Of a DNA stretch of 64,000 bases, positions 3,205-59,389 are shown piece by piece; within the stretch, counting starts at the first letter, position 1, and each line of letters begins with the position of its first letter. Both the position numbers and the translations under genes were made by a program. Where the stretch lies: the NCBI GenBank assembly GCA_016946835.1, contig JACVTC010000042.1, forward strand, positions 1 to 64,000, written 5' to 3'. Source of the DNA: Neocallimastix lanati (nom. inval.). Taxonomy: Eukaryota > Neocallimastigomycota > Neocallimastigomycetes > Neocallimastigales > Neocallimastigaceae. The notes beneath the pieces were generated by a model. That model saw nothing but the letters and a program-made list of their open reading frames with translations. It did not search any database and was not told the DNA's origin.

Positions 3205-6200
3205 ATGTGTAAGGATCAGGAAGAATATGATGTTTTACAAGATTTGAATGAAACCAAGTGTAATATTAGTTTCGGTCAGCTCCTCAATGTTTCTCCAAAA
3301 GTCAGAAGTCAAGTAAGTCAAGGATTAAAATTAGAAAAACCTGAAAAGAAAATAATAGGTGCATTAAACAATACTATTGCTGCTGCTACTTTGGTAAATA
3401 ATATTGATCACTCTTATATTAGCAAAAGTAAGGAAACCTCAGAAGAAGATATTGCCATGGTTGATGTAACAGTAGATGAAATTCCTGGTAAAGCACTTAT
3501 TGATTCTTGTAGTAACCTCAATGTTATCACAAAAAAATTTTATGAGAAATTACCTGGAAATTATGAAGAAGTAGGTATTAGTCGTGGAAGGATACGTTTA
3601 GCGACTAAGAATGATGAGTATTCGGAAGGAATCATTGTACGAATACCTGTTAAGATTAATGATTATAAAATGATAGTAGATTTTCGAATAATTGATGATG
3701 ATGACCCATTTTATGATTTGTTGATTAATTTTCAAACTCAAGTAGAACACAATCTTTTTATCCATCCTATAAGATATAGTTTATGTCAATTTAATTCTCA
3801 AGGACTAATCGACGTTATAGCTCCTATTAATAATAATTTCCAAGAAGAAGAAAAATTAGTATGTATAGTAAGGAAAATACTTGAAGATGAAGACACAACT
3901 AATGAATTAAAGAAACTTGAAGGTCTATCTCCGCAAGAGTATATCCATGATGAAAAATTTTTAGCAAGCCTTTGTAAAGATTATAAAGATGTAATAGTAA
4001 AATTACTTGAAGAAAACTTGGACATTATAGCGACATCTTCTGAAGAATTAACACCGTCAGACTTGGCCCCTCATAAAATTAACTTGAAAGCGAACGCAAA
4101 ACCTGTTAAACAAAGATGTTACAGAGTAACCAAATTTAAATCTGATATTATTAAAGAAGAACTAATTAAACTTATTAAGAAAAAGCTAGTTGTACCATCA
4201 TATTCAGAATGGTCTTCACCTGTTGTTGTGGTCCCAAAGGCTAATGGAAAATGGAGATTGTGTGTGGACTACCGCAAGGTGAATGATCTAACCGAAAAAG
4301 ACTCTTATGCCCTTCCTTATATTGACGAGATATTTGACAGTCTAGATGGTGCCAAAATCTTTACTACTATGGATCTATACTCAGGTTACCATCAAATCCT
4401 AATGGACGAAGAAAGTGTTGAAATAACCAGTTTTACAACCAAATTTGGCAACTACCAATTCAAAGTTATGCCTTTTGGATTAACTGGAGCTCCGGCTACC
4501 TTCCAACGGGAAATGAATAGAATTTTATTTCCTTTAATTGGAAAATGTGTTTTCAACTTTATTGATGATATACTTATATATTCAAAAACTGTCGAAGAAC
4601 ATATCCAACACATAAAACAAGTATTAGCAATCTTCAAGGAACATAAATTAAAAATTAATATTGAAAAATGTCACTTTATGCAAACGGAAGTTGAAGTTCT
4701 TGGTCACAAGATTTCTACTAAGGGTCTTAGTCCTCAAAATAGTAAAATTGAAGCAATTAAAGCCTGGAAAGAACCCACGAATATACATGAGTTAAGATCA
4801 TTCTTAGGTGCTGTAGGATATTATAGGAACTTTATAAATGAATATGCTCAAACCTCAGCTCCTCTTTGTAAGCTATTAAGAAAAGGCGTAAAATATAAAT
4901 GGAATAATGAACAAAAACAAAGTTTTACCAAATTAAAAGAAAAATTAATTAATGCTCCTATTTTAAAATATCCTGATTTTTCCAAAGAATTCATTATTCG
5001 AACAGATGCATCATATGAAGGTATTGGTGGAGTTTTATTGCAGAAAGACGAATCGGAAATAGAACACCCGATTCATTTCATTAGCCGTAGCTTAACCAAA
5101 GCAGAAAAGAATTATGGAATAACCGATTTGGAAGGAACGGCTTTATATTATTGTATTACTAAATTAAAACCTTATATTATGGGAAGCCCCTTTAGAACCA
5201 TAGTTTTTACAGATCACAAACCTCTACTAGGTTTATTTAATAATAAGGAACCGAATAATGCACGACAAACAAGATGGTGTTTGACTGCAAGTATGCTAAA
5301 AGTGGATATTCGCTATGAGCAAGGTAAAAAGAATGTAGTAGCCGACGCTTTATCTAGAATGAAGAACGATAAAGAACAAAAGGTATTAGCTATAAAAACG
5401 AATAAAGATGATGAAAATGATTCACTTTCTAAAGTAATTAAAGAATTTATTGAAGAAAAATTTACAAAGATTGATGGTATAGATTATTTTATAGATGGAA
5501 ATAATTATAGAAAACTTGTTACCGAAACAAATGAAAAACTAAAATTAATTATCGAAGCACATCATGTTGGCCATGAAGGTTATTATAAAACATATCAAAG
5601 ACTTAGAAAAAGTTACTACTGGAATGATATGGTCAACGATATAAAACGGATAATTTCAAAATGCGAAAAATGTCAGTTAAATCGCCCTCAGCCATATCCA
5701 GAACCAACCGAAAACATTCCAACAGAAGTTGAAGGCCCTTTTACTCATCTTGGACTTGATATTATTGGTCCCTTAATAAAAACTGGTAATAAAAACCAAT
5801 ATATCATTGTTGCGGTGGATTATTTCACAAAGTGGGTGGAGGCTGAACCTACTGAAAATATTACATCTAAGGACATCATTAAGTTTTTAATAAATGTTTT
5901 CGCTAGACATGGAGTTCCTCAAGTCATTACAACGGATAATGGCGTTCAATTCACATCGGATATGACTAAAATATTCCTGGACTTATATGATGTTTACGTA
6001 AAATTTACCACTACCTATCACCCAGAAAGTAATGGATTGGTTGAAAATAGGAATAAAGAAATTGGTAAATTATTGAGATTACTTGGTGAAGAAAATAAAG
6101 ACTGGGATGAGGTATTACCTTCAGCCTTGTGGGCCCTTAGAACTACAAAGAATTCTGTAACCAAACATTCTAGCTTCGAATTAGTTTATGGTCGTGAGGA

Positions 6201-6579
6201 TCAACAGCCTTTCGACATTGCTGCTAGACCTACACAAGGAGTGAATAAATCTTCAGATGAAATTCTTTTAGAAAAATTTATCTCACATTATAGGTGGACC
6301 ATGGAAGCAGCTGAAAATGTAAAGAACGCAAGTAAATATTGGGCCAATCGAAGGGAAGAAAAAAATAGCATGAAAAATTACAAAAACATAAGAATCGGTG
6401 ATTTAGTTCTTGTTCGAAATTTTAGTCGTTCTAAATTAGAACCTTATTTTGTCGGTCCTTTAAAAGTAATAAAAAAACAATTTAATACCGTAACACTTGC
6501 GGACCCAAATACTATGATTCAAATGAATCGTAATGTTCATTTGAAAAATATAGTAAAGTATAACTCAGCTATAGATTAG
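3205..6579 (+). CDS. pol: Ty3/gypsy Pol: protease, RT, RNase H, integrase (e1)
   Basis: An open frame of 1124 codons carrying the full Pol domain set, which copies element RNA into DNA and integrates it. Protease around residue 100 has the site D-S-C-S (D100), with Cys where Gly is usual. RT carries D390 (TTMDLYSGYHQ) and FIDD (D454, D455), with Phe instead of the usual Tyr. RNase H carries D601, E643, D670 and D714. Integrase has an HHCC zinc site (H786, H790, C820, C823) and the DDE triad D852, D911, E947 with 35 residues between the last two, followed by a GPL/GPY-like C-terminal module. The start codon is only where the frame opens after an indel; translation would come from the gag frameshift. 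Stop TAG is at 6577, 24 bp before the 3' LTR. It is the best-preserved pol in the window. Confidence 0.92.
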   Translation: MCKDQEEYDVLQDLNETKCNISFGQLLNVSPKVRSQVSQGLKLEKPEKKIIGALNNTIAAATLVNNIDHSYISKSKETSEEDIAMVDVTVDEIPGKALIDSCSNLNVITKKFYEKLPGNYEEVGISRGRIRLATKNDEYSEGIIVRIPVKINDYKMIVDFRIIDDDDPFYDLLINFQTQVEHNLFIHPIRYSLCQFNSQGLIDVIAPINNNFQEEEKLVCIVRKILEDEDTTNELKKLEGLSPQEYIHDEKFLASLCKDYKDVIVKLLEENLDIIATSSEELTPSDLAPHKINLKANAKPVKQRCYRVTKFKSDIIKEELIKLIKKKLVVPSYSEWSSPVVVVPKANGKWRLCVDYRKVNDLTEKDSYALPYIDEIFDSLDGAKIFTTMDLYSGYHQILMDEESVEITSFTTKFGNYQFKVMPFGLTGAPATFQREMNRILFPLIGKCVFNFIDDILIYSKTVEEHIQHIKQVLAIFKEHKLKINIEKCHFMQTEVEVLGHKISTKGLSPQNSKIEAIKAWKEPTNIHELRSFLGAVGYYRNFINEYAQTSAPLCKLLRKGVKYKWNNEQKQSFTKLKEKLINAPILKYPDFSKEFIIRTDASYEGIGGVLLQKDESEIEHPIHFISRSLTKAEKNYGITDLEGTALYYCITKLKPYIMGSPFRTIVFTDHKPLLGLFNNKEPNNARQTRWCLTASMLKVDIRYEQGKKNVVADALSRMKNDKEQKVLAIKTNKDDENDSLSKVIKEFIEEKFTKIDGIDYFIDGNNYRKLVTETNEKLKLIIEAHHVGHEGYYKTYQRLRKSYYWNDMVNDIKRIISKCEKCQLNRPQPYPEPTENIPTEVEGPFTHLGLDIIGPLIKTGNKNQYIIVAVDYFTKWVEAEPTENITSKDIIKFLINVFARHGVPQVITTDNGVQFTSDMTKIFLDLYDVYVKFTTTYHPESNGLVENRNKEIGKLLRLLGEENKDWDEVLPSALWALRTTKNSVTKHSSFELVYGREDQQPFDIAARPTQGVNKSSDEILLEKFISHYRWTMEAAENVKNASKYWANRREEKNSMKNYKNIRIGDLVLVRNFSRSKLEPYFVGPLKVIKKQFNTVTLADPNTMIQMNRNVHLKNIVKYNSAID

Positions 6580-6590
6580 CTTGAGTCTTA

Positions 6591-6602
6591 GTGGGGGCAT
6601 CT
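6591..6602 (+). other. polypurine tract of e1
   Basis: GTGGGGGCATCT lies directly before the LTR start TGGTAAAG. It matches the tract seen before other gypsy 3' LTRs here (at 18707, 51400, 56437), where plus-strand DNA synthesis is primed. Confidence 0.7.
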
Positions 6603-7441
6603 TGGTAAAGAACGAACATATAATAGATTATTAATTAGAATTTCAACTTACTTTAGAATCCATTATATTATTCTTTACTTAATATTACTTTACTATATTT
6701 TCTATACTAAAATATTTTCTAAATATATTTTTTTTTATATTTTTATTAAAAGTTTCTAAAATATTATCAATAATTCTATATTTTTACTATTAATATCAAT
6801 ATCTATAATTTACCTTAAATTTTATTATTTTATTAAAGTGTTTATTATCAATATTAATATTTTATTTTTATTTTCAAATATATTATTATATTATTATTAT
6901 ATTGTATCAATATTAAAATTGTATTCTTTTTAGTATTTTATTTTATTTTTAAATTGATTATTTAATATTTTTTTTATTCCCCACAAATAAAATCAAATCT
7001 TAATTGATTAATAATAAATATTAAATATATTATAGTTTTTAAATTTATTTTATATAAAATATAAGAATATTATATTAACATTCTTGATTAAAATAACTTT
7101 ATTTTTCTGTAAAATCTTTTTAAATTTTGCTTGTTACTTTTCGTATATATTAAATAATTTAGTTTTAGTATATGAAAAATAATATAAAATTATATAAACA
7201 AAATTTATTAAAATAAAAATACTTATGAATTAGTTAATTTAAATTAATATAAAATTTTAAGTAATTAGTAATAGTAAATATTTTTTTTTTAAATATGATA
7301 ATAAAATGTAGAAAGGCTTTACATATTTATTTTTTTTCAAAAAGTATAAATAAGTGAAGTTTTTCAATAATTAAAATGTGGACAGAAAAATATTAAAAAT
7401 AAATAATTAAATAAAATTCTAATAAAACCCGAACCATAACA
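6603..7441 (+). repeat. 3' LTR of e1
   Basis: An 839-bp LTR, TGGTAAAG...CCATAACA. A second, reverse-oriented copy lies at 47138-47968, which confirms both ends. It is followed by gtgt (7442-7445), re-used as target duplication by the next two LTRs. Confidence 0.8.
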
Positions 7442-7445
7442 GTGT

Positions 7446-8943
7446 TGTTACGGTACAATTAAATAAAGAAAAATTAAACTATTTAAAGAAAATATTTGTT
7501 AAGATAATAACTGAATTTCAATTCAATTTCAATTTCGATAATTCAGTTATTTGAATTTCAATATTAATAAAAAATAATAATATAATAATTATTATTAAAT
7601 TAACTTTATTAAAATATTTAGGAATTAGTCTAGGCCAACTAATTACTAAATATTATTAACATATTGAATTTAATATATATTAAATAATGTAAACACGTGA
7701 TTGTCATATTAAATTAATTTCTACATATTATATTTTAATTATAAAATATAATATTTAGCTATATTAGATTCTTATATTTTATTTATATTAAATATTTATA
7801 TTATTATCTTATTTTATATTATCAATATCAAACTTTTATTAATGCTATTACATATTCATATTAATAATTAATATTTTAAAAATTAATTATTTTATATAAA
7901 TACATGTTTAAATTCTTTTGATTAATCCTTTGTAGGATTATTGTAATTTAAATTATAGTAATAATTATATAAAATAATAATGTAATAAAATATTATTAAG
8001 ATTAAATAAAATTTATATTTTAGATAAAAACTTAATTATAAAATTTACTAATAACAATATGTTTTAAATAAGAATAAAATTAAATTATTAATTAATTACT
8101 ATAATTTGGCATCTTGACCTAATCGTTAAGACCAAATTATCTTAAAACTTTGACAATATTAAAGTAAAAAATATCATTAACAATTATAAATAAATAATAA
8201 AAAAATTGAATATTAAAATATTAGTTATAGAATATTATAAAGTTAAATAAAAATAATTAGATGTATTAAAAAATCATGTATTAATTATATTATTTAATAT
8301 TGTAAAATTTTTATATAATATTTTAATAATTTAGAAAATTTAAGTTTATTATATTTTTATTATTATATTTTTATTATTAAATTTTTATTATTAATTTTTT
8401 TTATTTTTATTTTTAATCCAATCAAATAAATATTTTATTAGTATAAAAAAGAACAAAGTAACACAATACTTTTGTTCTCTCCCTTTTTTTCTTATGACTT
8501 TATTATTATATTATTTTTTTAATATTTTCTAAAAGTTAAATAATAAATTAAATAGTTTAAAATAAATTAAAATTTATTAAATAGTTTTTTCTAAATTTAG
8601 TGTTTTAAAAGTGTTTAATTAATAGTTTTTTGTGTTTAGTGTATAATATTAAGATAAGTATAGTATAAAATTAGTTTAGTAATAGATTAGTTGTATTAAA
8701 CATTTTATAGAAATAGTAATAGATTTAGAGAAATTGTTTAGTTTATATTAGAATAGTTTAGATTAAGATATTAGTTTAAGTTATTTTAACTTAGTTTAGA
8801 TTCTTTTAGATTAGGATAGTTTAGACTAAAATTAGAGTAGTTTATTAATTAATTTAGGTTTAGAATTAGAGAATATTATTTTAAATTTTTCCTTATTATT
8901 AGAATACATTATTTTATTAATAAAATCTTCAGATCTTGTACCA
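7446..8943. repeat. solo LTR, family I, with nested LTR
   Basis: TGTTACGG...TTGTACCA flanked by gtgt on both sides (7442-7445 and 8944-8947). It is about 834 bp once the nested LTR at 7497-8155 and its 5-bp duplication are removed. No coding sequence. Orientation unknown. Confidence 0.65.
7497..8155. repeat. nested solo LTR, family J, copy 1
   Basis: TGTTAAGAT...CTTTGACA, 659 bp, flanked by a perfect 5-bp duplication ATATT (7492-7496 and 8156-8160). The inverted copy at 10590-11229 and the truncated copy at 46369-46941 define the family. It lies inside family I, with the duplication at bases 47-51 of the host LTR. Confidence 0.85.
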
Positions 8944-8947
8944 GTGT

Positions 8948-9473
8948 TGATAAAGAATAGAATAATAATTATATTTTTAATTAAATTTTTAATAATTTAT
9001 TATATAAAAATATATTATTATATTCTTTACTATTAATAATTTTCTTATATTCTATATAATAATTTTTTTATATTAATTATATTTTATTATTTTAAATATT
9101 AAATTTATGTAATTAATTAATTCATATGATTGGTTTTAATAATGTAATTAAATAATATAAAATATGTATTATCCATATTATTTTATGAAGGGGGCCTTTC
9201 TGAGAAAAGAAATAGTAGAAATAGTAGTGATAATGAAATAGGAATAATAATTGAAAGGTTTCCCATATTGTTATTAAATAAATATTAATATTAATAAAGT
9301 ATTTTTAACAATAAAATAATTATATAATTTATAAATAATAAATATTTTTAATAATAGTTCTTTAAATAAAATTTATAATATGTAATAATAAATTCTTTTA
9401 GTGTAATTTAGTAATTAGTTCATTTATCTATTTAATTAATGTTCACACTCCTTTTCTAATATGAACCTCAACA
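8948..9473. repeat. solo LTR, family H
   Basis: TGATAAAG...CCTCAACA with gtgt at 8944-8947 and again at 9474-9477. The right copy overlaps the first three bases of the neighbouring chromovirus LTR, so the insertion went in at that LTR's edge. No coding sequence. Confidence 0.6.
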
Positions 9474-9474
9474 G

Positions 9475-10030
9475 TGTAAAAGGTAAGTTTATTATTAACT
9501 AAAATAACGAATAACAATTAAATCTAAAGGCTAAGATAACTTAACACCTCTCTATTCGAGTTGTTAATAATAAACACTAAATTAATTAATTTTATAACTA
9601 TTATTTCCTATTACACTAGAATATAGCGCAGCACTTTATAACTCTATTTGTTATCAGTTATTGGGCTTACACTGAGTAATATATTTTATTTAATAATTAT
9701 ATTTTATTTATTAATATTAATATTTATAACAACAATTTACGTTAATAGTAACGCTAGTGCGTTACAGTTACAAGTTCAATTATTATTTATACATGTCAAT
9801 AATATTATTATTGGTAAATAATTTAATTTAACTTAGTTTACTAATCACTAAATAAAATATATTTAACTAAGTATTTAACTATATAATTAATTATAAAATA
9901 ATAAAATTTAATGTACGAAATTAACAAAAGATTTTATTTGATTAGCCGAAATTGCTAGCTGTTTAGAGATACGTTACGTAACCAAAGAATTATCATTGGA
10001 TAGTCTTGAAGTTACCATGTATCTGTTACA
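9475..10030 (-). repeat. chromovirus solo LTR (family C), reverse
   Basis: 556 bp, the reverse complement of the LTRs at 40971-41528 and 50304-50860, both of which directly follow chromovirus integrase or chromodomain sequence. Ends on this strand are TGTAAAAGG and ATCTGTTACA. Confidence 0.85.
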
Positions 10031-10037
10031 GATTGAG

Positions 10038-10533
10038 TGTTAAGGAATGAACAAATAATGTTAATTTTATTATTTTTCATAAAAATAACTTAACCACTAA
10101 AATTAAATTATTTATTTCCTTACTTGGGGAACTTTCTTATGTTCTATTACTGCCAAATTATTACTAATATTAAATTTATTATTATTAATATAAATTCTTT
10201 ATTAATATCAATACTTTATTATTAAAATTAATACTATATTATTAATATCAATATTATTATCAATATCTTGTTTTATTAATGATTTATTCTATCAATATTT
10301 TATTATTAAAGAAAATTTTATTTTACAAATATTACTAATACAGATTATTTATTATTAATAAAAATTAATATAATTAATAATGATTTAAAAATATTTTACT
10401 TAAATCCATGAATAATTTTTATTAAATAAATAAATAAAATATTTTAAAAAAAAGATATATTTTAATTTTTAATTTTTTTTTTATTTTAGTGTTTATTTCT
10501 ATATTTATTATTGATCTGTCCCGAACCTCAACA
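10038..10533. repeat. solo LTR, family G
   Basis: TGTTAAGG...CCTCAACA, 496 bp, flanked by tgag on both sides (10034-10037 and 10534-10537). No coding sequence. Confidence 0.6.
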
Positions 10534-10537
10534 TGAG

Positions 10538-12148
10538 TGATAAATAACAAAATTATTAAATTAAAATAAATAATAAAGAACAAATTCTTTGTTAAAGTTT
10601 TAAGATAATTTGGTCTTAACGATTAGGTCAAGATGCCAAATTATAGTAATTAATTAATAATTTAATTTTACTCTTTATTTACATATTGTTATTAGTAAAT
10701 TTTATAATTAAGTTTTTATTTAAAATATAAATTTTATTTAATCTTAATAATATTATATTACATTATTATTTTATATAATTATTACTATAATTTAAATTAC
10801 AATAATCCTACAAAGGATTAATCAAAAGATTTAAACATGTATTTATATAAAATAATTAATTATTAAAATATTAATTATTGATATGAATATTAATATAAGT
10901 TTGATATTGATAATATAAACTAAGATAATAATATAAATATTTAATATAAATAAAATATAAAAATCTAATATAGCTAAATATTATATTTTATAATTAAAAT
11001 ATAATATGTAGAAATTAATTTAATATGACAATCACGTGTTTACATTATTTAATATATATTAATTTCAATATGTTAATAATATTTAGTAATTAGTTGGCCT
11101 AGACTATTTCCTAAATATTTTAATAATAATTATTATATTATTAATTATTAATATTGAAATTCAAATAACTGAATTATTGAAATTGAAATTGAAATTGAAT
11201 TAAATGTAAATTCAGTTATTATCTTAACATTCTTGTCTAACTTAACCCAAAAATTAATCCATTATAAAAAAAATTAAATCCATATTAAAAAAAATTTAAT
11301 TAAAAATAATTAAAATAAAATAATAATAAATTAATTAATCATTAATAATTTTAATTAAAAACTAAAATAAATTAATAAAAAATATTTTTCTAAAACTACA
11401 AATAAACAAAATAATAAACAAATTTAATAAATTATAAATAACAAATAAACAAACTTATAAACATCTCAAAATTAAAATTAAATAGTTAAATAATTAAGTT
11501 ACTTTTATTTAAAATAATGATTATTTTATTTATTTTATAACTCAACTTTTATAAACAAATTGTAATTAAAATCACATTTTAAAACTCATCTTTATTAATA
11601 TTTTAAATGTAAATATTGTTTAATTTAATAATAAATTATTCTTTATTTCTCTTTTATTAATTTTATTATTTTTAATGTAAATAGTTTAAAATCAAAGAAA
11701 AATATAAAAATATGTAAATATTTCTTATAAATTATTCTTTATTATTAATTATTTAATAAATTATTATAGATATTTTATTAGTTTTAATAATCAAAAAGTA
11801 TGATTATTAATTATTTAATAAATTATTATATATATTTTATTAGTTATTAATAATCAATTTTATTATTAAAATTTAAAATAAATTAGTATAAATAATAAAT
11901 ATTTCATTTTATTATTTTATTAGTTTTAACAATTATTTTATTAATTTAAACAAAATTAATTATTAAATAAATAAAGATTAATATTAAAATAAAAATAAAT
12001 TTTTTTTAATAAAACATTTTTGTGTTTAATAATAAAACATATTTATTTTTTTTTTAAAATTTTTAAATCTATTTTATTCAGTATTTATCCTCTTATTCAC
12101 TTCTACAAAATTTAACTTTTGTAGATTAAGAATATCAGGTATAAATCA
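10538..12148 (+). repeat. solo LTR, family F, copy 1, with nested LTR
   Basis: TGATAAATAAC...GTATAAATCA flanked by tgag (10534-10537, 12149-12152). The uninterrupted copy at 59390-60552 shows the empty site that the nested family J LTR (10590-11229) occupies here. Orientation is taken from the related 5' LTR at 37687. Confidence 0.8.
10590..11229. repeat. nested solo LTR, family J, copy 2 (inverted)
   Basis: Reverse complement of the copy at 7497-8155, 640 bp, with a 5-bp duplication TTCTT at 10585-10589 and 11230-11234. It lies inside family F, with the duplication at bases 48-52 of the host LTR. Confidence 0.85.
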
Positions 12149-12152
12149 TGAG

Positions 12153-13205
12153 TGATACGAAATATTAATAAATAGTTAAAATTAGTAAAATTGTTGATAG
12201 TAATGTCAAGGATTTGATACAAATTAATTTACATTTAATACTATAAAAATAACAATTTAATTATAAATATAATTTGTATTCCTTAAATCCTTGTACCGTT
12301 CATAATCTAATTAATATTGTATTACATATTAATTAATATTATCCCTTTTATACATTATTGAACCCCTAATATATTAATTGATTAATATTGTTTTACATAT
12401 TAATTAATATTATCCCTTTTTATATTAATCAATATAGTTGAATATTATTTATAAAAATTGTTTTTTTATTAATTATATTATTTTATATATTATCTTATAT
12501 TATATATGTATTATTCTATTACTTTATATATTAAAATTATATTTTATATTGTTATCTTTAAATTAGTATTTATTAAAATATATTATTAAATATTTTATAT
12601 TGTTTTTCAAAAATATAAAAGAACTAAAAAATATTCTTTTTTAAATCTTTGTAAGATTATTATTTACAAATAATCTGATAACTTTATAATAAAACATATT
12701 AAATAAAATATAATTAATTAAAAGTTTAATAATAAAATAATATTTTATAATTTGAATAAATTAATTTAAAAAATAAAATAATATCCATAAGGTTATTAGA
12801 TTAAAGGCTTCCAACCAAGTTTACCTTTAATCTAAGTACCAACTCAACAAGTAAGAATAATATAGTTTTTAAAGTTAAAATAGTTTATTTTATGTTTAGT
12901 ATAATAGAATATAAATAAAAACAGGGAGTTAGTTAGTTTAAGAAAGAGATATGTATATTCTAGAGATAATTATATAATAATATTGAATTAGAGGAGTAAT
13001 TAATATTCTTATATAGATTATAATAGAATAATAATTACATAATTGGTATTACTTAAATTAAATAAAGATAAATAATAATAAAAGATTGACATATTTAAAT
13101 TATTGTGTGAATTATTATTAAGTATAATTATTCTTATAGAATTTATTAAGTGTTTACACATAAGATTACACCCTGATCCATATACAAGTTAAAAATCTTG
13201 TATCA
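12153..13205 (+). repeat. LTR, family A, copy 1, with nested LTR
   Basis: TGATACGAAA...CTTGTATCA, same family as the 3' LTR of e2 (18719-19135), which lacks the insertion. tgag flanks it on both sides (12149-12152, 13206-13209). It is followed by a piece of family T rather than a primer-binding site, so it is not a normal 5' LTR for e2. Confidence 0.75.
12204..12849. repeat. nested solo LTR, family K
   Basis: TGTCAAGGAT...CAACTCAACA, 646 bp, with a 5-bp duplication AGTAA at 12199-12203 and 12850-12854. It lies inside family A, with the duplication at bases 47-51. The empty site is intact in the copy at 18719. Single copy in the window; its start resembles the inverted start of family J. Confidence 0.85.
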
Positions 13206-13209
13206 TGAG

Positions 13210-13440
13210 TGTGTAATAATTCTATTAAGAACTAACTCAAAATAGAATTATTAACTACAACTTAACGACTAATTCATTAAGTTGAGAAAATAAAATAAAA
13301 TAATTTTTTTTTTACTTATAGAGTATATTATAAAATTAATTATAATAATAACACAAAAAGCAAAAGAAGAATTGTTTGTATAAATTTGATTTTAAAAATA
13401 TATTTTTGAATAAAATATTTTTATTAATTTATTAAAGTTA
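13210..13440 (-). repeat. truncated LTR, family T, copy 1
   Basis: Begins TGTGTAATAATTC, as in the full copy at 19140, and matches it for about 230 bp until it is cut off at 13440, where e2 gag sequence begins. The same 'family A - tgag - family T' order recurs at 18719-19370. Confidence 0.75.
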
Positions 13441-13442
13441 AT

Positions 13443-13676
13443 AATCGAAATGGATATCCCAATAGGAGAACTAATAAATCCGTAACTTTTTCTAATGTTA
13501 ACATTCAAGAAGGTATAAATAATAGTAGAAGAAATAATACAAATGAAAATTTGGAATGCTTCCGTTGCGTTCAAAGAGGACATAAAAGAAGTGAATGTCC
13601 TTATTCCTTTAGACAATTAGCAGAATTAGAGGAGAAAGGTTTGTTAAATAATAATGATAAAAAGCATTTAAATTAG
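13443..13676 (+). pseudogene. gag: gag nucleocapsid fragment, element e2
   Basis: The C-terminal 77 codons of a gypsy gag, open up to the TAG at 13674-13676. A zinc knuckle CX2CX4HX4C (CFRCVQRGHKRSEC) is followed by the conserved tail RQLAELEEKGLL, shared with the reverse-oriented Gag at 63718-63987. The tail binds element RNA in the particle. Everything upstream (capsid, leader, primer site) has been lost at the junction with the family T LTR at 13440, so it has no start codon of its own. It ends just downstream of a frameshift heptamer. Confidence 0.8.
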
Positions 13677-41528: not shown

Positions 41529-42533
41529 TGATACGGGCTGGGTTTGAAACACTAAGATATTCAAAACAAAAAAAAAATAAATATTAAAACACAAAAATGA
41601 ATTTGAAAACAAATAAAAAAGTTAATTTTTAAAATATTCCTTTATTTAAAATTAAAATTAAAATTATTTGTTCTAAGTATTAAAAAGAAAGAAATTTATT
41701 CTTCTTTTTATACTTTTATTTTAATACATTTTATTTATTATTAATATATTCTTTATAAAAAATAAACTATTATAACTATTTTATTTTAATTTTTAACTAT
41801 TATTTTAAATTATTTTAATAAAAAATAATGTTTGTTAAATTAAAATATAAAAAAATTAATTTAGAGATTATATCATGAAGGGCATTCCGGGCGGTAGCTT
41901 CTTCTTGATATTGTTTTCAAAGAGAGAATTATACAGAATTGATATTTTCTGTATTTTAGATCATTTTTATTATTGGAATTCTTCTGTATTTTAGTTCATT
42001 TTTATTTTAATAAAGATTTAATTTATTTTTGATTTTTGTTTTATTTTTAGTTTATTTCAAAGGTTTTAGAAAATATTATACAGAAACTTATAATTCTGTA
42101 TTTTACATCAAATATTTATTGAAATAGGTTTTTATTATTCTTAATATAAAAATAAGAATTAGTAATGATTTAAATATTATATAATTTTTAATAAGAATAC
42201 TTAGTAATAATTTTTATTATATTTAATATTAATAAAATATTTAATAATTATTTTTATTAGATTTGATATTAATAAAAGATTTTAATAAGAATATTTAATA
42301 ATAATTTTTATTATATTTAATATTAATAAAAGAATTTATAAGAATATTTAATAATAATTTTTATTATATTTGATATTAATAAAAGATTTTAATAAGAATA
42401 TTTAATAATAATTTTTATTATATTTAATATTAATAAAAGAAATTAATAAGAGTATTTAATAATAGTTTATTATTTTATTATTATTAAGAGTATTTAATTG
42501 GAAATACAAGGTATTTAGTGACACCCCGTATCA
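41529..42533 (-). repeat. solo LTR, family D, copy 1
   Basis: TGATACGGG...CCCCGTATCA, 1005 bp, with inverted 9-base termini. Same family as 47973-49552, whose polypurine tract gives a minus orientation. It contains about six units of a 53-bp repeat (42150-42470). Confidence 0.8.
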
Positions 42534-42536
42534 AAA

Positions 42537-43511
42537 TGTAAGAAATAATAATTATTTATTAATAAATAATTAATATTTCTTAGTCTTTATAATTATTAAT
42601 AATAATTATAAATTTATTTAAGTTATAACTAATTCATACATTGAGGTACTATTATCAAATTATTATAATTATAATTATTCATACACTTAAATAATATTAG
42701 AAAATTTATTTAAATAATTATTATATGTACACTTATTAATATTATTAATTTTATTTAGATATTCATTTAATTATCAAGTTAATGTAAACATTAGTTTTAT
42801 TTATTTTTTACATTATACATTTAAAAGAACAATTAATAAGTTTCTGTATTCTTTATAATTCTACATTTCAGTTTAAGGATAGTATTACGTTAATAAGTTT
42901 AGATTAGATTTTAAAAATGATATTTAGAAAAATAGATTAATTTAGATCATTACGGTTATTTATTTTTCCTTTTATTTAATGATCTAAATTAAAATTTAGA
43001 AAACCGATATTTTAAGGTTTTATCCAAATATAAAATAATATATTTGGTTTTACTTAATATATACGATGATCGATATAAATAGAATATCGATCATAACTTA
43101 TCTAGATTTTTCTTCTAATCTTTTTCTAGATAAGATATTTTTTAAGATTAGAAAACCTTTTTTTATTTAACCTTATTTCCAAAAAAAATATAAATAAGGC
43201 TCTTGATTTCCCTTTAAGAAATCAAGAGTTATTATTATAAAAAACATAGTTATAATAATAACAATTTTATATTTTCAACTTTAATAAATTAATGAAGTAT
43301 TTTATTCAAAAAACATATTTTTAAAATCAAATTTATACAAATAATTCTTCTTTTGCTTTTCGTGTTATTATTATAATTAATTTTATAATAAACTCTATAG
43401 GTAAAAGATTTATTTTATTTTATTTTTTATTTTCTCAACTTAATGAATTAGTCGTTACGTTGTAGTTAATAATTCTGTTTTGAGTTAGTTCTTAATAGAA
43501 TTATTACACAA
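42537..43511 (+). repeat. solo LTR, family T, copy 3
   Basis: TGTAAGAAATAAT...AATTATTACACA, 975 bp, flanked by aaaa (42533-42536, overlapping the last base of the previous LTR, and 43512-43515). Confidence 0.75.
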
Positions 43512-45434: not shown

Positions 45435-46368
45435 TGTAAGAAATAATAATTATTTATTAATAAATAATTAATATTTCTTAGTTTTTATAATTATTGATTA
45501 TAATTATAAATTTATTTAAATTATAATTAATTCATACATTGAGATATTATTATCAAATTTATTATTATTATAATTATTCATACACTTAAATAATATTAGA
45601 AAATTTATTTAGATAATTATTATATGTACACTTATTAGTATTATTAATTTTATTTAGTTATTCATTTAATTATCAAGTTAATGTAAACATTAGTTTTATT
45701 TATTTTTTACATTATACATTTAAAAGAACAATTAATAATTTTCTGTATTTTTTACAATTTTGTATTCTAGTTTAAAGATAGTTTTATGTTAATAAGTTTA
45801 GATTAGATTTTAAAAATAATATTTAGAAAAATAGATTAATTTAGATCATTACGGTTATTTATTTTTCCTTTTATTTGATGATCTAAATTAAAATTTAGAA
45901 AATCGATATTTTAAGGTTTTATCCAAATATAAATAATATATTTGGTTTTACTTAATATATACGATGATCGATATGAATAGAATATCGATCAAAAAACTTA
46001 TCTAGTTTTTTCTTCTAATCTTTTTCTAGATATTTTTTAAGATTAGAAAACCTTTTTTTATTTAACCTTATTTCCAAAAAAAAAATATAAATAAGGCTCT
46101 TGATTTCCTTTTAAGAAATCAAGAGTTATTATTATAAAAAACATAGTTATAATAATAACAATTTTATATTTTTAACTTTAATAAATTAATGAAGTATTTT
46201 ATTCAAAAAACATATTTTTAAAATCAAATTTATACAAATAATTCTTCTTTTGCTTTTCGTGTTATTATTATAATTAATTTTATTATAAACTCTATAGGTA
46301 AAAGATTTATTTCATTTTATTTTCTATTTTCTATTTTCTCAACTTAATGAATTAGTTGTTAAGTTGTA
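45435..46368 (+). repeat. LTR, family T, copy 4, cut by family J
   Basis: Close copy of 42537-43511 up to GTTGTA, where the family J LTR starts; the last 46 bases are missing. If the last five bases TTGTA are the J duplication, it occupies bases 47-51 from the family T end. Confidence 0.75.
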
Positions 46369-46941
46369 TGTTAAGATAATAACTGAATTTCAATTCAATT
46401 TCAATTTCAATAATTCAGTTATTTGAATTTCAATATTAAAAAATAATAATATAATAATTATTATTAAATTAACTTTATTAAAATATTTAGGAATTAGTCT
46501 AGGCCAACTAATTACTAAATATTATTAACATATTGAAATTAATATATATTAAATAATGTAAACACGTGATTGTCATATTAAATTAATTTCTACATATTAT
46601 ATTCTTATATTTTATTTATATTAAATATTTATATTACTATCTTACTTTATATTATCAATATCAAACTTATATTAATACTATTACATATTCATATTAATAA
46701 TTAATATTTTAATAATTAATTATTTTATATAAATACATGTTTAAATCTTTTGATTAATCCTTTGTAGGATTATTGTAATTTAAATTATAGTAATAATTAT
46801 ATAAAATAATAATGTAATAAAATATTATTAAGATTAAATAAAATTTATATTTTAAATAAAAACTTAATTATAAAATTTACTAATAACAATATATAAATAA
46901 AGAGTAAAATTAAATTATTAATTAATTACTATAATTTGGCA
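46369..46941. repeat. family J LTR, copy 3, truncated
   Basis: Same sense as 7497-8155, starts TGTTAAGATAAT, stops at about 46941 within AATTTGGCA, losing the last 60 or so bases together with the rest of the family T host LTR. Confidence 0.8.
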
Positions 46942-47137
46942 CTTGATTTTGAAAAATATATAATATTTCTTTCATATCTGAGTATTAATGTAATTTTTAA
47001 GTGTAATTTATTTGTTTTAATTAATTAATTAATTAATTTTTTTATTTTATTAAATTATTATTAAACTTGGCTAAGGTTAGTTTTGATTTTATGTATAATA
47101 AATTTTCAAGATTTATTAATTTTGTTATTTATCACAA
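46942..47137 (-). repeat. family F-like LTR end, truncated
   Basis: Its right end reads TTTGTTATTTATCA, the reverse complement of the family F start. The rest is unassigned AT-rich DNA. The duplication acaa begins with its last base (47134-47137). Confidence 0.4.
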
Positions 47138-47972: not shown

Positions 47973-49552
47973 TGATACGGGCTGGGGTTGAAACACTAAG
48001 ATATTCAAAACAAAAAAAATAAATATTAACAAATAACTATAAAAATAAATTTGGAAACAAGAAAAAAATTAAATTTTAAAATATTCTTTATTTAAATTTA
48101 AAATTAAAATTCCAAGTATTAAAAAGAAAGAAATTTATCTTTTTTTATACTTTTATTTTAATACATTTTATTTATTATTAATATATTCTTTATAAATAAA
48201 ACTATTATAACTATTTTATTTTAATTTTTAACTATTATTTTAAATTATTTTTTTTAAAAAAATAACATTTATTAAATTAAAATATAAAAATTAATTTAGA
48301 GATTGTATCACGAAGGGCATTCCGGGCGGTAGCTTCTTCTTGATATTGTTTTTCCGAGAGAGAATTATACAGAATTGATATTTTCTGTATTTTAGATCAT
48401 TTTTATTATTGAAATTCTTCTGTATTTTAGTTCATTTTTATTTTAATATTGATTTAATTTATTTTTAATTTTTGTTTTATTTTTAGTTTATTTCAAAGGT
48501 TTAGAAAATATTATACAGAAACTTATAATTCTGTATTTTATATCAAATATTTATTGAAATAGGTTTTTATTATTCTTAATATAAAAATAAGAATTAGTAA
48601 TGATTTAAATATTATATAATTTTTAATAAGAATATTTAGTAATAATTTTTATTATATTTAATATTAATAAAATATTTAATTTATTTTTATTAGATTTGAT
48701 ATTAATAAAAGATTTTAATAAGAATATTTAATAATAATTTTTATTATATTTAATATTAATAAAAGAATTTATAAGAATATTTAATAATAATTTTTATTAT
48801 ATTTAATATTAATAAAAGAATTTTATAAGAATATTTAATAATAATTTTTATTATATTTAATATTAATAAAAGAATTTATAAGAATATTTAATAATAATTT
48901 TTATTATATTTAATATTAATAAAAGAATTTTATAAGAATATTTAATAATAATTTTTATTATACTTAATATTAATAAAAGAATTTTATAAGAATATTTAAT
49001 AATAATTTTTATTATATTTAATATTAATAAAAGAATTTATAAGAATATTTAATAATAATTTTTATTATATTTAATATTAATAAAAGAATTTTATAAGAAT
49101 ATTTAATAATAAATTTTATTATATTTAATATTAATAAAAGAATTTATAAGAATATTTAATAATAAATTTTATTATATTTAATATTAATAAAAGAATTTAT
49201 AAGAATATTTAATAATAATTTTTATTATATTTAATATTAATAAAAGAATTTATAAGAATATTTAATAATAATTTTTATTATATTTAATATTAATAAAAGA
49301 ATTTTATAAGAATATTTAATAATAATTTTTATTATATTTAATATTAATAAAAGAATTTTATAAGAATATTTAATAATAAATTTTATTATATTTAATATTA
49401 ATAAAAGAATTTATAAGAATATTTAATAATAATTTTTATTATATTTGATATTAATAAAGGAAATTAATAAGAATATTTAATAATAATTTTATTTTATTAT
49501 TATTAAGAGTATTTAATAGGAAATACAAGGTATTTAGTGACACCCCGTATCA
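47973..49552 (-). repeat. 3' LTR, family D, copy 2, expanded
   Basis: TGATACGGG...CCCCGTATCA, 1580 bp, about 575 bp longer than copy 1 because of an expanded internal repeat. A reverse polypurine tract and pol tail follow at 49553, which sets the orientation. Confidence 0.85.
48590..49485 (-). repeat. 53-bp minisatellite inside family D LTR
   Basis: About 16-17 head-to-tail units of 53-54 bp with the core AATTTATAAGAATATTTAA and TTATTATATTTAATATTAAT. Units differ mainly by one T (TTTATA or TTTTATA). Copy 1 of the LTR has about six units. Confidence 0.85.
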
Positions 49553-49592
49553 TAATCTCCCCGCTTAAGATGAGACTTCATCCCCTGAAGTC
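49553..49592 (-). promoter_or_regulatory. polypurine tract and GACTTC hairpin of the family D element
   Basis: On the minus strand AAGCGGGGAGATTA abuts the LTR. GACTTC 49574-49579, a 7-base loop and GAAGTC 49587-49592 lie just before it. The hairpin overlaps the codons for TSGDEV at the pol C-terminus. Confidence 0.65.
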
Positions 49593-49894
49593 TGATTATA
49601 CCAAGTATAATAATGAACAAGATTTTTCTGGTGTACATTTCTGTCAGCTATTTCACCAGTGTAAATATCACAAATACAAGCGGTATTATAATTCATTTGA
49701 ACAATTCTAAAAGGACCAGTGTAAAAGGGGTCTAACTTTCTTCTTGAGAAATTTCTAACTAAAATTAAGTCCCCTGGTTCAAAAACAGTATTCATAGATT
49801 TTTGTTGTTTTCTTCTATTTTCTAATTTATTAGCATTATCAATATTAACAGTGGCTTTCATAATCCATTTATGATGAGTTGTAAATTTTCTAAT
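49565..49894 (-). pseudogene. pol: gypsy Pol C-terminus, family D element
   Basis: Only the end of integrase is left: KLENRRKQQKSMNTVFEPG, DLILVRNFSRRKLDPFYTGPF (GPY/F module), DRNVHQKNLVHYYTWY and a C-terminal TSGDEVSS. It is closest to the ends of e1 pol (residues about 1050-1120) and the pol at 52729. Upstream pol is cut off at about 49894, where an inverted piece of family D LTR begins. Not functional on its own. Confidence 0.75.
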
Positions 49895-55689: not shown

Positions 55690-55763
55690 TGGGTTGAGGT
55701 GTGAGTCGAACCCATGAAGTATTGGTCATGGTCAATGTAACTAACCATTGAACCAAAGTTCTA
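55690..55763 (-). tRNA. degenerate tRNA-like sequence
   Basis: On the minus strand it has an A-box-like TGGTTCAATGG (55745-55755) and a B-box-like GGGTTCGACTC (55703-55713) at close to the normal tRNA spacing. The anticodon arm pairs weakly (ATTG with CAAT), the T stem has a mismatch, and no acceptor stem forms, so it is at best a tRNA pseudogene or relic; the anticodon cannot be read. An LTR target duplication (ctga, 55774) lies about 11 bp upstream of its 5' side. Confidence 0.3.
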
Positions 55764-55778
55764 ATTTTACTAACTGAT

Positions 55779-56436
55779 TGATACAGAACATTTAAAATAT
55801 TCCATATCTAGTTATTTATTTATTTGGTCGTTTCTCTAGGGAATTATGACACAATAATATATTCTAATAAATATAAGAAAATAATTTATAATAATAATGT
55901 TTTATAATAATATTTTGTTCTTTATTTATTTTTATAATTTTATTTTTACATACATAATAATTTATTATTACATTCTCTTAATTTTATATAATTGTTAAAA
56001 TAATTACTTAATATTATATTTTTATTAAACATATCTCTTTAACTATTAATTTCCTAATAACTTTATTTAAAAATACAATTTCATTATTAAATATATTTAA
56101 CTATTAATATTTAAAATATATTTCCTAAATAAAATATAATTATCAATATTTATAATATAATTCCTAAAACTATATAATTCTCAAAATAATATTTAAAATA
56201 TAAAATAAAACTTATTAATAATAATGATGAATTAATTTATTATCATAATAATAGAATCATTATTAATATAATTTATCTATTTTAATTATGATAAAAGAAT
56301 TAACCATGCTTTTAAAAATAATTATTTGAATTAACTATATATAAATTATTTTAATTATTATAACCAATAATATTTATACAATATTTCTAACCTAAATTTC
56401 TTACCTAAATCTTATTTTTATAGTGGTATCGTATCA
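55779..56436 (-). repeat. 3' LTR of the gag-only element
   Basis: 658 bp, TGATACAGAA...GTATCGTATCA on this strand. No difference from 58729-59386 was noticed when the two were read side by side. Confidence 0.88.
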
Positions 56437-56476
56437 AGATTCCCCCACTTTAAATAAGACTTCGTCCCTTGAAGTC
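56437..56476 (-). promoter_or_regulatory. polypurine tract and GACTTC hairpin of the gag-only element
   Basis: Minus strand: GACTTC, 7-base loop, GAAGTC (56458-56476), then AAAGTGGGGGAATCT to the LTR edge. The hairpin is kept although pol is absent, so a cis role in RNA is more likely than a protein one. Confidence 0.65.
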
Positions 56477-56602
56477 AGGCGAAAAAAAAAAAATTTTTTT
56501 TTTTTTTTTTTTTAATTATTTAATAATTAAATTTTTATATATATTTTGTTAAAAAAGTAAAAACATAAAAATATTACGTATAAATTTTTTTTTTTTTTTT
56601 TT

Positions 56603-56690
56603 TTATAGAAATTTGAAATTTGAAATTTGAAATTTGAAATTTAATAATTTAAATTTTGAATTTTTGAATTTTGAATTTTGAAAATTTAAT
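56603..56690. repeat. GAAATTT / TTTTGAA microsatellites
   Basis: About five GAAATTT units followed by several TTTTGAA-type units, just downstream (minus strand) of the gag stop. The two halves can partly pair. Confidence 0.65.
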
Positions 56691-56705
56691 TGAATTATAT
56701 TCAAA

Positions 56706-58361
56706 CTATGTTTTTCTTTTTCTTTTATATTTGTAATTCCTGATAATACACTTTGTATCTTTCCTATTATTATTATACTTTTTAATAATTGTATTTTTAT
56801 AATTAAATTTAATTTTAAATTTTCTTTTTGAATTATTTTTGCTATTACCATTATTTTGGTTGGAATTTTCTACAGTAGGTATTTTTTTTATTATTATTTT
56901 ATTATCAGAATTTATTTTAATTTTATTTATCATTTCATTATAAATATTTAAATTATTTCCTTCCATCTTAATTATATTTATTTTCAATTTATCAATAGGT
57001 TTACTTTCTAATAATTTACTTTCCTCTTTACATAATAATATGTTTTCGTTTTTCTTTTCTACTGGAATTAGTTTATGTGATGGATTATATACGTTACCTT
57101 CGAGAATAGTATCACTCAATTTATTAATTACCATATTACCTTCTATATTTTCTTCAATAATTTGTTTATCCATATTATCATTATAAGTTGTGATTTTAGT
57201 TTGAATTCTATCATTATCATTATTTACGTGTTTATTTCCTGATTCGCCCTTAACATTAACATTTTCATCCACGGAATTTAAATTATAATTTTCTTCAATA
57301 GTGCAAGTATCTTTACTATTAATATTATGATCATAATTACTATTTATTATTTCTTTATAAATACCTTTTGAAGAACTATTAATATTACCATAATAATAAT
57401 ATGAATTCAAATTTTCTTTATTAATATAATAATTATTTATTGAATTAACATTCATGCAAGAATTACAATTAGAATTATTCATAGATTTTAAATAATTTTC
57501 TTTACCATTAAAATTTGAATTGCCACATTCAACATTAGTATAATCCGAATCAAAATAATTAAAATTTTTATTTTGTTCAATATTATAATTTCTTTTATAA
57601 TAATTCATTTTGTTTTGTCTAGGCGTAAAATTATTTATTTTATTATAATAATTATTAGTTTTTAATTTATTATTATAATTATTGTAATAATTAAAATTAA
57701 ATTTCTTAAAATTTTTATTAATATTTTCATTTATTAATCCATATTCTCTAAAATGCGTGTTATAAGGGTCAGTCCTATTGTTTCTCCTATTATAAGTTAT
57801 TTTATGGTTATTAAAGCTTTCTCTTTCTTCCTTATTAGATTCTATTAATTCATTTTCTATTCTTTCAGCGAGAGAAGCAGTTTTCATAGCATCTTCTATA
57901 GTTTTGCATCCTTTTATAATTACTTGTTGATATGGGAAACGTCTAACTTTTATTGAATTTAAATAATCTTCAATTGTCACTAATTTCCTAAAGTCGCACT
58001 CCAAATTCTTTAATAGTCTTCTATAAGTTACATTAAAAATTGAAATTTTTGTATCATTTGGAACTTTTATGGTCTTTAAAGTCCAGCATTTTTCACTTTG
58101 AGTAATATTTAAATATTTTTCAATGGCATATTGTATTTCTTTTAATGTTGGATATTCATTTCTTTTATACTTTTCTTTTAATATTTTAATTTCTATATTT
58201 ATGTCTTGATTTACACATTTAATTATCCAAAAGTATTGTTGCCTCAATGTGTAAATCTCCCATAATTCCATAACTTCCTCAAAGTCCTTAATCCATCCAT
58301 CAATATCCCTTCCATAATTGACTAATAAAGGTAGTTCTTTTATTAAGCCTTGAACATTCAT
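56706..58361 (-). CDS. gag: Gag of the gag-only element
   Basis: An intact frame of 551 codons from ATG 58361. Gag would assemble the particle that packages this element's RNA. Residues 1-185 (WIKDFEEVMELW..., EYPTLKEIQYAIEKYLN..., AMKTASLAERIENELI) form a helical capsid domain with the same pattern as e1 gag. The rest is Asn-, Tyr- and Lys-rich low complexity ending in a basic tail KYKRKRKT. No zinc knuckle is present, unlike the other gags here; the basic tail may bind RNA instead (inference). No frameshift cassette follows, as expected with no pol. The leader carries an A run of about 45 bases just before the ATG. Confidence 0.85.
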   Translation of the reverse strand: MNVQGLIKELPLLVNYGRDIDGWIKDFEEVMELWEIYTLRQQYFWIIKCVNQDINIEIKILKEKYKRNEYPTLKEIQYAIEKYLNITQSEKCWTLKTIKVPNDTKISIFNVTYRRLLKNLECDFRKLVTIEDYLNSIKVRRFPYQQVIIKGCKTIEDAMKTASLAERIENELIESNKEERESFNNHKITYNRRNNRTDPYNTHFREYGLINENINKNFKKFNFNYYNNYNNKLKTNNYYNKINNFTPRQNKMNYYKRNYNIEQNKNFNYFDSDYTNVECGNSNFNGKENYLKSMNNSNCNSCMNVNSINNYYINKENLNSYYYYGNINSSSKGIYKEIINSNYDHNINSKDTCTIEENYNLNSVDENVNVKGESGNKHVNNDNDRIQTKITTYNDNMDKQIIEENIEGNMVINKLSDTILEGNVYNPSHKLIPVEKKNENILLCKEESKLLESKPIDKLKINIIKMEGNNLNIYNEMINKIKINSDNKIIIKKIPTVENSNQNNGNSKNNSKRKFKIKFNYKNTIIKKYNNNRKDTKCIIRNYKYKRKRKT

Positions 58362-58367
58362 TTTGAT

Positions 58368-58423
<56 letters not shown>

Positions 58424-58706
58424 AATTTTTTTCTTTTTTTTTTGTTTATATTTATTTCTATTACGCGTTATTTTAAATAATATATATTATTATAACATTT
58501 TAAATAACTATTATTTTATTATTTACTATTTTAAACTATTATTTTATTATGTGTCATTAAAACCTATTAATATTATCTTTACGTGTTAAAATAAACTATT
58601 ATTTTATTACACGATATTTTTTTTTTGTATTATTATTATTATTATTATCATTATTATTATTATATTTTCAAATTTTTATTATTTTCATATTATCATGCTA
58701 GAGAAA

Positions 58707-58724
58707 CGCCCGGATTCTCCACCA
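58707..58724 (-). other. primer-binding site of the gag-only element
   Basis: Minus strand TGGTGGAGAATCCGGGCG, four bases after the LTR end. It would pair with a tRNA ending CGCCCGGATTCTCCACCA. I cannot name the tRNA. It differs from the sites of families S, F2 and R. Confidence 0.65.
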
Positions 58725-58728
58725 TTTT

Positions 58729-59386
58729 TGATACAGAACATTTAAAATATTCCATATCTAGTTATTTATTTATTTGGTCGTTTCTCTAGGGAATTATGAC
58801 ACAATAATATATTCTAATAAATATAAGAAAATAATTTATAATAATAATGTTTTATAATAATATTTTGTTCTTTATTTATTTTTATAATTTTATTTTTACA
58901 TACATAATAATTTATTATTACATTCTCTTAATTTTATATAATTGTTAAAATAATTACTTAATATTATATTTTTATTAAACATATCTCTTTAACTATTAAT
59001 TTCCTAATAACTTTATTTAAAAATACAATTTCATTATTAAATATATTTAACTATTAATATTTAAAATATATTTCCTAAATAAAATATAATTATCAATATT
59101 TATAATATAATTCCTAAAACTATATAATTCTCAAAATAATATTTAAAATATAAAATAAAACTTATTAATAATAATGATGAATTAATTTATTATCATAATA
59201 ATAGAATCATTATTAATATAATTTATCTATTTTAATTATGATAAAAGAATTAACCATGCTTTTAAAAATAATTATTTGAATTAACTATATATAAATTATT
59301 TTAATTATTATAACCAATAATATTTATACAATATTTCTAACCTAAATTTCTTACCTAAATCTTATTTTTATAGTGGTATCGTATCA
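58729..59386 (-). repeat. 5' LTR of the gag-only element
   Basis: 658 bp, the same as 55779-56436. The next LTR starts four bases on (59390), where the TGAT duplication overlaps its first base. Confidence 0.88.
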
Positions 59387-59389
59387 TGA

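Follow-up and report, generated by a model that had tools for sequence, protein, structure and literature searches.

Two classes of long terminal repeat (LTR) retrotransposons in the genome of the anaerobic fungus Neocallimastix lanati appear to measure their insertion sites from genes transcribed by RNA polymerase III (Pol III), a reading to which we assign a probability of about 0.85. The stretch under study, referred to as the window, comprises 64,000 nucleotides of contig JACVTC010000042.1 (assembly GCA_016946835.1; C357:1-64000 in our numbering), and the assembly searched comprises 199 Mb in 762 contigs. Solo LTRs of two families, J and K, lie in the window inside other LTRs, and an earlier sequence-only reading had proposed that these elements integrate at a distance measured from the edge of the host LTR. 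On the reading we favor, that apparent ruler would be a consequence of where both classes stand relative to the Pol III gene.

In the proposed mechanism, LTRs of a proximal class (families F, A, I, T and others, with a 4-5 bp duplication) would insert close to the Pol III start site, ~10-18 bp before the 5' end of the tRNA, the position also taken by Ty3. Elements of a distal class (J, K and probably N, with a 5-bp duplication) would place their duplication ~60 bp from that 5' end, at a site that is plausibly the upstream border of the transcription factor TFIIIB. A proximal LTR abutting the gene would then be struck ~46 bp inside its gene-facing edge and, because host LTRs share the Pol III anchor, J and K would enter 46 bp inside the LTR that happened to stand next to the gene. 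Proximal LTRs arriving later would enter at one and the same 4-5 bp site, displacing the earlier LTR outward together with its J or K, so that in the resulting stack the ruler would appear to start at the LTR edge.

J and K insert at a fixed distance

The fixed distance of J and K insertions is confirmed, and it extends far outside the window. J insertions were taken from 30 loci found as scored matches and from the first 30 of 367 places of a J end pattern, the 21-base J end having 367 exact matches genome-wide. For K, 40 of 2400 first-look candidates were scored; 19 of 40 listed places entered as single loci and 18 more as nine full-length pairs, with the window K counted and its duplicate on contig C57 and the K of locus L059 left out. 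This gave 76 J and K records with both ends, from which 12 sharing flank sequence were dropped, some of them perhaps independent, to leave 64 insertions. Identical 5-bp flanks were present in 41 of 47 J, in all nine full-length K and in 9 of 20 single K LTRs, the remaining 11 having K-internal sequence on one side and thus representing one end of a full-length element. Four of the six J without identical flanks are LTRs of full-length elements, while L010 has a degenerate start and L040 a 1-base mismatch.

We scored LTR/LTR junctions as CA-N3-5-TG, with the distance taken outward from the 5-bp duplication, a rule that misses degenerate ends (for example at L056) and edges at 48-56 that lack this form. 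Half of the junction matches around the 64 insertions (39 of 78) fall at 41-50, and every other 5-bp bin holds between zero and seven. The peak lies at 44-47 bp with a mode of 46 (n=19), placing the duplication at 47-51, and 33 of the 64 insertions have a junction at 41-51, one of which (L092-093) has it on the flank opposite its Pol III gene. In addition, alignments of the flanks with other loci often break at 44-49, usually on one side.

Such a distance could arise if the nested pairs were copies of one or a few ancestral insertions carried along with their host LTR. Some of the 12 records dropped for common flanks are true duplicates, and C57 carries a copy of the window region. We nevertheless consider this explanation scarcely credible, since J and K differ, as do their hosts and neighbors, and F alone holds insertions in both orientations with three different duplications (TTCTT, ATTCA and ATTCT). 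For the four pairs of the window, which involve two families, different duplications and different hosts, descent from one event was rejected.

Where a Pol III gene directly adjoins them, insertions of this set keep a fixed distance to it. A search for the B-box motif in outward orientation across the 152 flanks of the 76 insertions gave 13 matches at 11 distinct loci, all at 111-115 bp, compared to three matches (at 36, 106 and 223) in the reverse-orientation control. A relaxed motif added L096-097 at 113, bringing the number of insertions with a directly adjoining Pol III gene to 12 of 64. Five of these genes are tRNAs called by ARAGORN (Cys at L009, Glu at L010, Trp at L026 and L067, Ala at L097) and seven are tRNA-like; Rfam, run on 18 and 20 loci with E values up to 1, listed only tRNAs already called by ARAGORN. 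With A boxes and CA ends picked by eye, the A box starts 67-71 bp from the duplication in the 12 loci (mean 68.7, standard deviation (SD) 1.0), and the B box lies at a mean of 112.8 (SD 1.2). At these 12 loci, J and K insertions are thus clustered at a fixed distance from Pol III genes.

Four of the 12 loci (L010, L068, L092-093 and L094-095, the last two being distinct insertions at two copies of the same tRNA-like gene) lack a CA end at 40-56 and yet show the same A- and B-box distances, indicating that the LTR edge is not needed; as the cause of the ruler, the edge was rejected on this count. The anchor of the ruler is most likely the Pol III gene rather than the LTR edge. What stands of the earlier proposal, integration measured from an LTR edge, for example by a bound protein, is a fixed distance such as a bound protein would give; what most likely falls is the anchor. 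Work on TRE5-A has argued that the A box sets such distances (PMC5391098, as excerpted), and here anchoring on the A box and on the B box cannot be separated because the A-B spacing is nearly constant. A sharp distance of about five helical turns would also suit an effect of LTR ends on nucleosome phasing or DNA bending, but the host sequences differ, one value is seen rather than a ladder, and the distance is kept without an LTR end where a Pol III gene is present. We regard this possibility as very improbable.

Host LTRs, stacks and displaced genes

To place the host LTRs, we sampled 20 tRNA genes of one type from the 29 listed outside contig C555 (63 listed in all). A CA end lies 10-18 nt upstream of the tRNA, or of the first of a pair, in 18 of the 20 (the background rate predicts 2.9), and all but one (L137) have repeat matches that end 11-18 nt short of the tRNA. 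A second peak comprises 11 CA ends at 65-69 nt upstream of the tRNA, with L126 counted twice. Matches break at 65-68 nt in L122, L125, L126, L134 and L131/L136 (the latter two with a common flank), which fits what is expected of distal-class insertion, and L126 has an uninterrupted counterpart in L128. The host LTRs thus occupy the start-site position, with distal elements ~46-50 bp beyond. Since host LTRs also insert at tRNA genes, their edge stands at a fixed distance from the Pol III gene; with both classes at fixed offsets, an LTR abutting the gene is therefore struck near 46.

Two further features of the tRNA loci were observed. In 11 of the 20 sampled loci (L119-L122, L124-L126, L132, L134, L135 and L138) a tandem pair of tRNA genes is separated by a few bases, the first gene beginning GCTCTTATGG and the second GCTCGCGTAGCC, and an LTR-type end immediately precedes the pair. 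On contig C555, 34 of the 63 listed tRNA matches lie on one strand within ~230 kb (C555:170732-399007), some ~540 bp apart, and constitute an amplified tRNA array.

Host-class elements leave 4-5 bp duplications (TGAG for F, TGAT for the element at 55779-59386 of the window). In 6 of 18 loci the gap sequence of the locus itself is found again at an additional junction, versus 9 of 299 for gaps taken from other loci; for example, CAAAA is found at three successive junctions in L040 and CGAA at two in L027. The recurring gaps fit repeated insertion into one site with older LTRs pushed outward. A displaced gene can be seen at L011, where a tRNA-Cys lies behind an F that carries the J of L009 and subtraction of F and J gives 112 bp, and at L023, where a tRNA-Val lies behind a 710-bp LTR and subtraction of this LTR and 4 bp gives 113 bp. 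As the gene is visible in only two loci, perhaps three, we infer displacement for most LTR/LTR loci, which would in general have been made beside a Pol III gene.

Several observations weigh against this reading. No outward-facing Pol III gene came into view when 20 junction loci were extended to 1.65-3 kb or when four stacks were walked by 6 kb, to 8.4-9.0 kb, and 20 of the 64 insertions have neither a junction at 41-51 nor an adjoining Pol III gene. Neither ARAGORN nor Rfam finds a tRNA gene in the window, including the degenerate tRNA-like gene at 55690-55765. The seven tRNA-like genes among the 12 adjoining J or K are recognized by their A and B boxes, with no call by ARAGORN, and the one submitted to the Rfam tRNA model, that of L014, was unmatched at E up to 1. 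Of the 11 CA ends that make up the 65-69 nt peak, at least four belong to ordinary host sequence (three to F, in L120, L129 and L135, and one in L119, which reads as the host of L035). Among the displaced genes, the two 4-nt gaps of L023 differ by one base (ATAG, ACAG), those of L011 are poly-A, and at L037 the junction has a tRNA-like gene behind it but the position of the far LTR edge could not be fixed. Finally, TFIIIB is a putative tether of J and K.

The result of the extended junction loci, together with the 33 insertions that have a junction at 41-51, is what would be expected if the ruler did start at the LTR edge, that is, if a factor bound to or shaped by the LTR end steered J and K ~46 bp inward without a tRNA gene. 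That explanation does not account for the four Pol III-adjoining insertions that keep their distance although they lack a CA end at 40-56. In the remaining eight, the A box is confined to 68-70 and the CA ends spread over 44-49. Moreover, a symmetric junction should be struck from both sides, whereas in the three stacks with multiple J, K or N insertions all edges face one way (window 3 of 3, L007 2 of 2, L009/L011 2 of 2), although seven is a small number. We consider an LTR-edge ruler of this kind unlikely. There is also a slim chance that J and K, in addition to using Pol III genes, read the LTR/LTR junction directly, with proximal LTR ends serving as assembly sites for a Pol III (TFIIIB-like) complex; LTR stacks would then propagate as self-made targets.

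A tRNA-like family (TGGTTCAATGG ... GGGTTCGACTC) is present as two inward-facing copies ~5.3 kb apart in the extended loci L013 and L040, possibly inside the LTRs of a full-length element, and the same family occurs at window 55690-55765. Because the gene occurs twice in L013 and L040, some Pol III-like targets may be element-borne. A separate idea, in which the sequence past each junction would be the primer site belonging to the host element itself, was rejected, as F precedes several sequences and one sequence follows several hosts.

The distal elements and known systems

One K copy encodes gag and a 1192-aa Pol of Ty3/gypsy type with the domain order RVT_1, RT_RNaseH, Integrase_H2C2, rve and SH3_Tf2-1 within one element; the protease match is weak (E 0.018). 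The full-length K copies have paired LTRs with 5-bp duplications in nine of nine cases. Judged by its LTRs and the predicted order of reverse transcriptase, RNase H and integrase, K is a Ty3/gypsy (Metaviridae) element. Consistent with this, the best solved match of its Pol is Ty3 Gag-Pol (structure 7q5b), as is that of a window open reading frame (ORF) at 3205-6579. Pfam gives no Chromo match in K Pol. Its C-terminal tail aligns with the Chromo domain of the relatives P0041 (E 3.5e-08) and P0042 (E 5.9e-06), and K may on this basis possess a diverged chromodomain. Protein relatives of K bear the label Orpsp1_1, that of the anaerobic gut fungus Orpinomyces.

ORFs of at least 70 aa on the J strand inside J element parts are only gag-like (four loci: L020, L021, L024 and L029), and these J copies therefore look non-autonomous. 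The element of L021/L024 (C147:117574-121072) is a 3.5-kb J element with AAACT on both flanks and only a gag-like ORF, perhaps a non-autonomous partner dependent on the Pol of another element. A third family, N, adjoins J or K across a 5-bp duplication in L011, L062, L063 and L090 and lies 46 bp from the edge in L007; it probably belongs to the distal class.

The sequence-only reading knew of no described system with such a rule, but insertion at a fixed distance upstream of Pol III genes is known from Ty3, Tj1, DGLT-A, TRE5 and others, as the review PMC5911963 sets out in its relevant part. Like K, Ty3 of Saccharomyces cerevisiae and the Ty3-like elements (Tj1, DGLT-A, Tyl3, Ylt1, Tyl6 and Beta/Tca8) are Ty3/gypsy elements with a fixed position upstream of Pol III genes (Tj1 is treated in passages of PMC4600332, DGLT-A in passages of PMC5006619). 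The same part of the review gives, for the Ty3/gypsy elements that insert upstream, distances of 1-10 bp when counted from the start site or 6-33 bp when counted from the mature sequence. The proximal class here stands at the Ty3-like position (~15 bp upstream), with host LTRs at 10-18 nt, whereas J and K lie ~46 bp further upstream, ~60 bp from the tRNA. The nearest offsets in the review's table are those of elements in social amoebae, TRE5 (40-54 bp) and NLTR-B (39-64 bp upstream of tRNA genes; PMC5911963), and for TRE5-A, 80.2% of 1,003 events fall at 47+/-3 bp, as given in an excerpt of PMC5391098. These resemble J and K in their fixed insertion upstream of tRNA genes. They are non-LTR elements, in contrast to J and K, which as LTR elements fall outside the TRE5 family, K being a Ty3/gypsy element with 5-bp duplications and an offset of ~60 bp. 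Ty1, Ty2 and Ty4 of yeast are LTR elements like J and K that also favor the region upstream of Pol III genes, but the review passage describes a ~1-kb window without a fixed point, and they are of Ty1-copia type (PMC5911963). The Skipper-2 chromoviruses, which also target tRNA genes, are LTR elements whose chromodomain has diverged (PMC5006619), and the tail of K Pol, which aligns with the Chromo region of relatives, may be comparable; Skipper-2 inserts downstream of tRNA genes, while J and K insert upstream. No earlier report of such insertion in anaerobic fungi appeared among the papers listed by literature searches on these fungi, on Neocallimastix and on retrotransposons, which is no proof of absence.

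The kind of targeting is already known, and what is new is a gypsy LTR element at a TRE5-like position beside a Ty3-like class in one genome. Two fixed offsets from the same Pol III gene appear to be in use in a single genome, the start site and a point ~46 bp upstream of it, and the upstream offset, which the review's table has for non-LTR elements only (PMC5911963), is here used by LTR elements. Because each proximal insertion pushes older ones outward, the stacks would form an ordered insertion record in which J and K mark the LTR that stood in front at the time of their insertion. Whether a gypsy integrase with a diverged tail reads the TFIIIB border on its upstream side also becomes testable.

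Nested LTRs and neighboring features of the window

The window is very AT-rich. In host LTR I, the proximal 51 bp (7446-7496) end in the target duplication ATATT (7492-7496, second copy 8156-8160), with the junction at 46, and are followed by a solo J LTR of the distal class at 7497-8155 (+ strand), flanked by ATATT on both sides. Host LTR F spans 10538-12148 minus its J, and with the flanking TGAG copies (10534-10537 and 12149-12152) occupies 10534-12152. Read from the sequence, TGAG is a 4-bp duplication of the proximal class that falls exactly at the edge of A. The J LTR within F (10590-11229, - strand) lies between TTCTT copies at 10585-10589 and 11230-11234, which correspond to F positions 48-52. 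The proximal 51 bp of host LTR A (12153-12203) end in the duplication AGTAA (12199-12203, positions 47-51), with a solo K LTR at 12204-12848 (+ strand) and the second AGTAA copy at 12849-12853. J and K are different families, as K sequence gives only weak, AT-rich and partial matches to J loci.

For these three pairs the coordinates of the sequence-only reading proved exact, with duplications on both sides, and uninterrupted sites are visible in F at 59.39 kb, in A at 18.75 kb and in T at 43.46 kb. Its fourth case, J in host LTR T (46369-46946, + strand), is consistent with the others but less complete. The J sequence matches 1-621 of the 660 positions of the J LTR, one duplication copy remains (TTGTA, 46364-46368), the second is absent because the LTR is truncated, and the distance comes from comparison with another copy of T. 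The claim that the host LTRs are unrelated is not entirely correct, as A and T share a segment (13190-13445 versus 43530-43271) at 90% identity.

An LTR-like repeat at 6602-7441 adjoins I across a 4-nt gap (GTGT, 7442-7445) and matches 47969-47134, the match ending at 7445. This repeat would have inserted later than I, separating it from a Pol III gene now out of view. Of 21 B-box matches in the window, five have an A-box-like match upstream, and among these five the tRNA-like gene at 55690-55765 (- strand, limits approximate; A box TGGTTCAATGG, B box GTTCGACTC at 55711) is the one whose family recurs in L014. Next to it lies a young 3.6-kb LTR element (55779-59386, - strand) with LTRs 99.85% identical and TGAT at 55775-55778 and 59387-59390; situated between the tRNA-like gene and a second F LTR, it is a visible case of an LTR pushed away.

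The J-in-I and K-in-A pairs of the window (7497-12848) are present with 100% identity at C57:1865185-1870535, perhaps as a recent segmental duplication or perhaps as a second haplotype. The window also contains a tandem array with a period of ~53-54 bp at 42114-42574 and 48547-49649, and its expansion differs between the two places.

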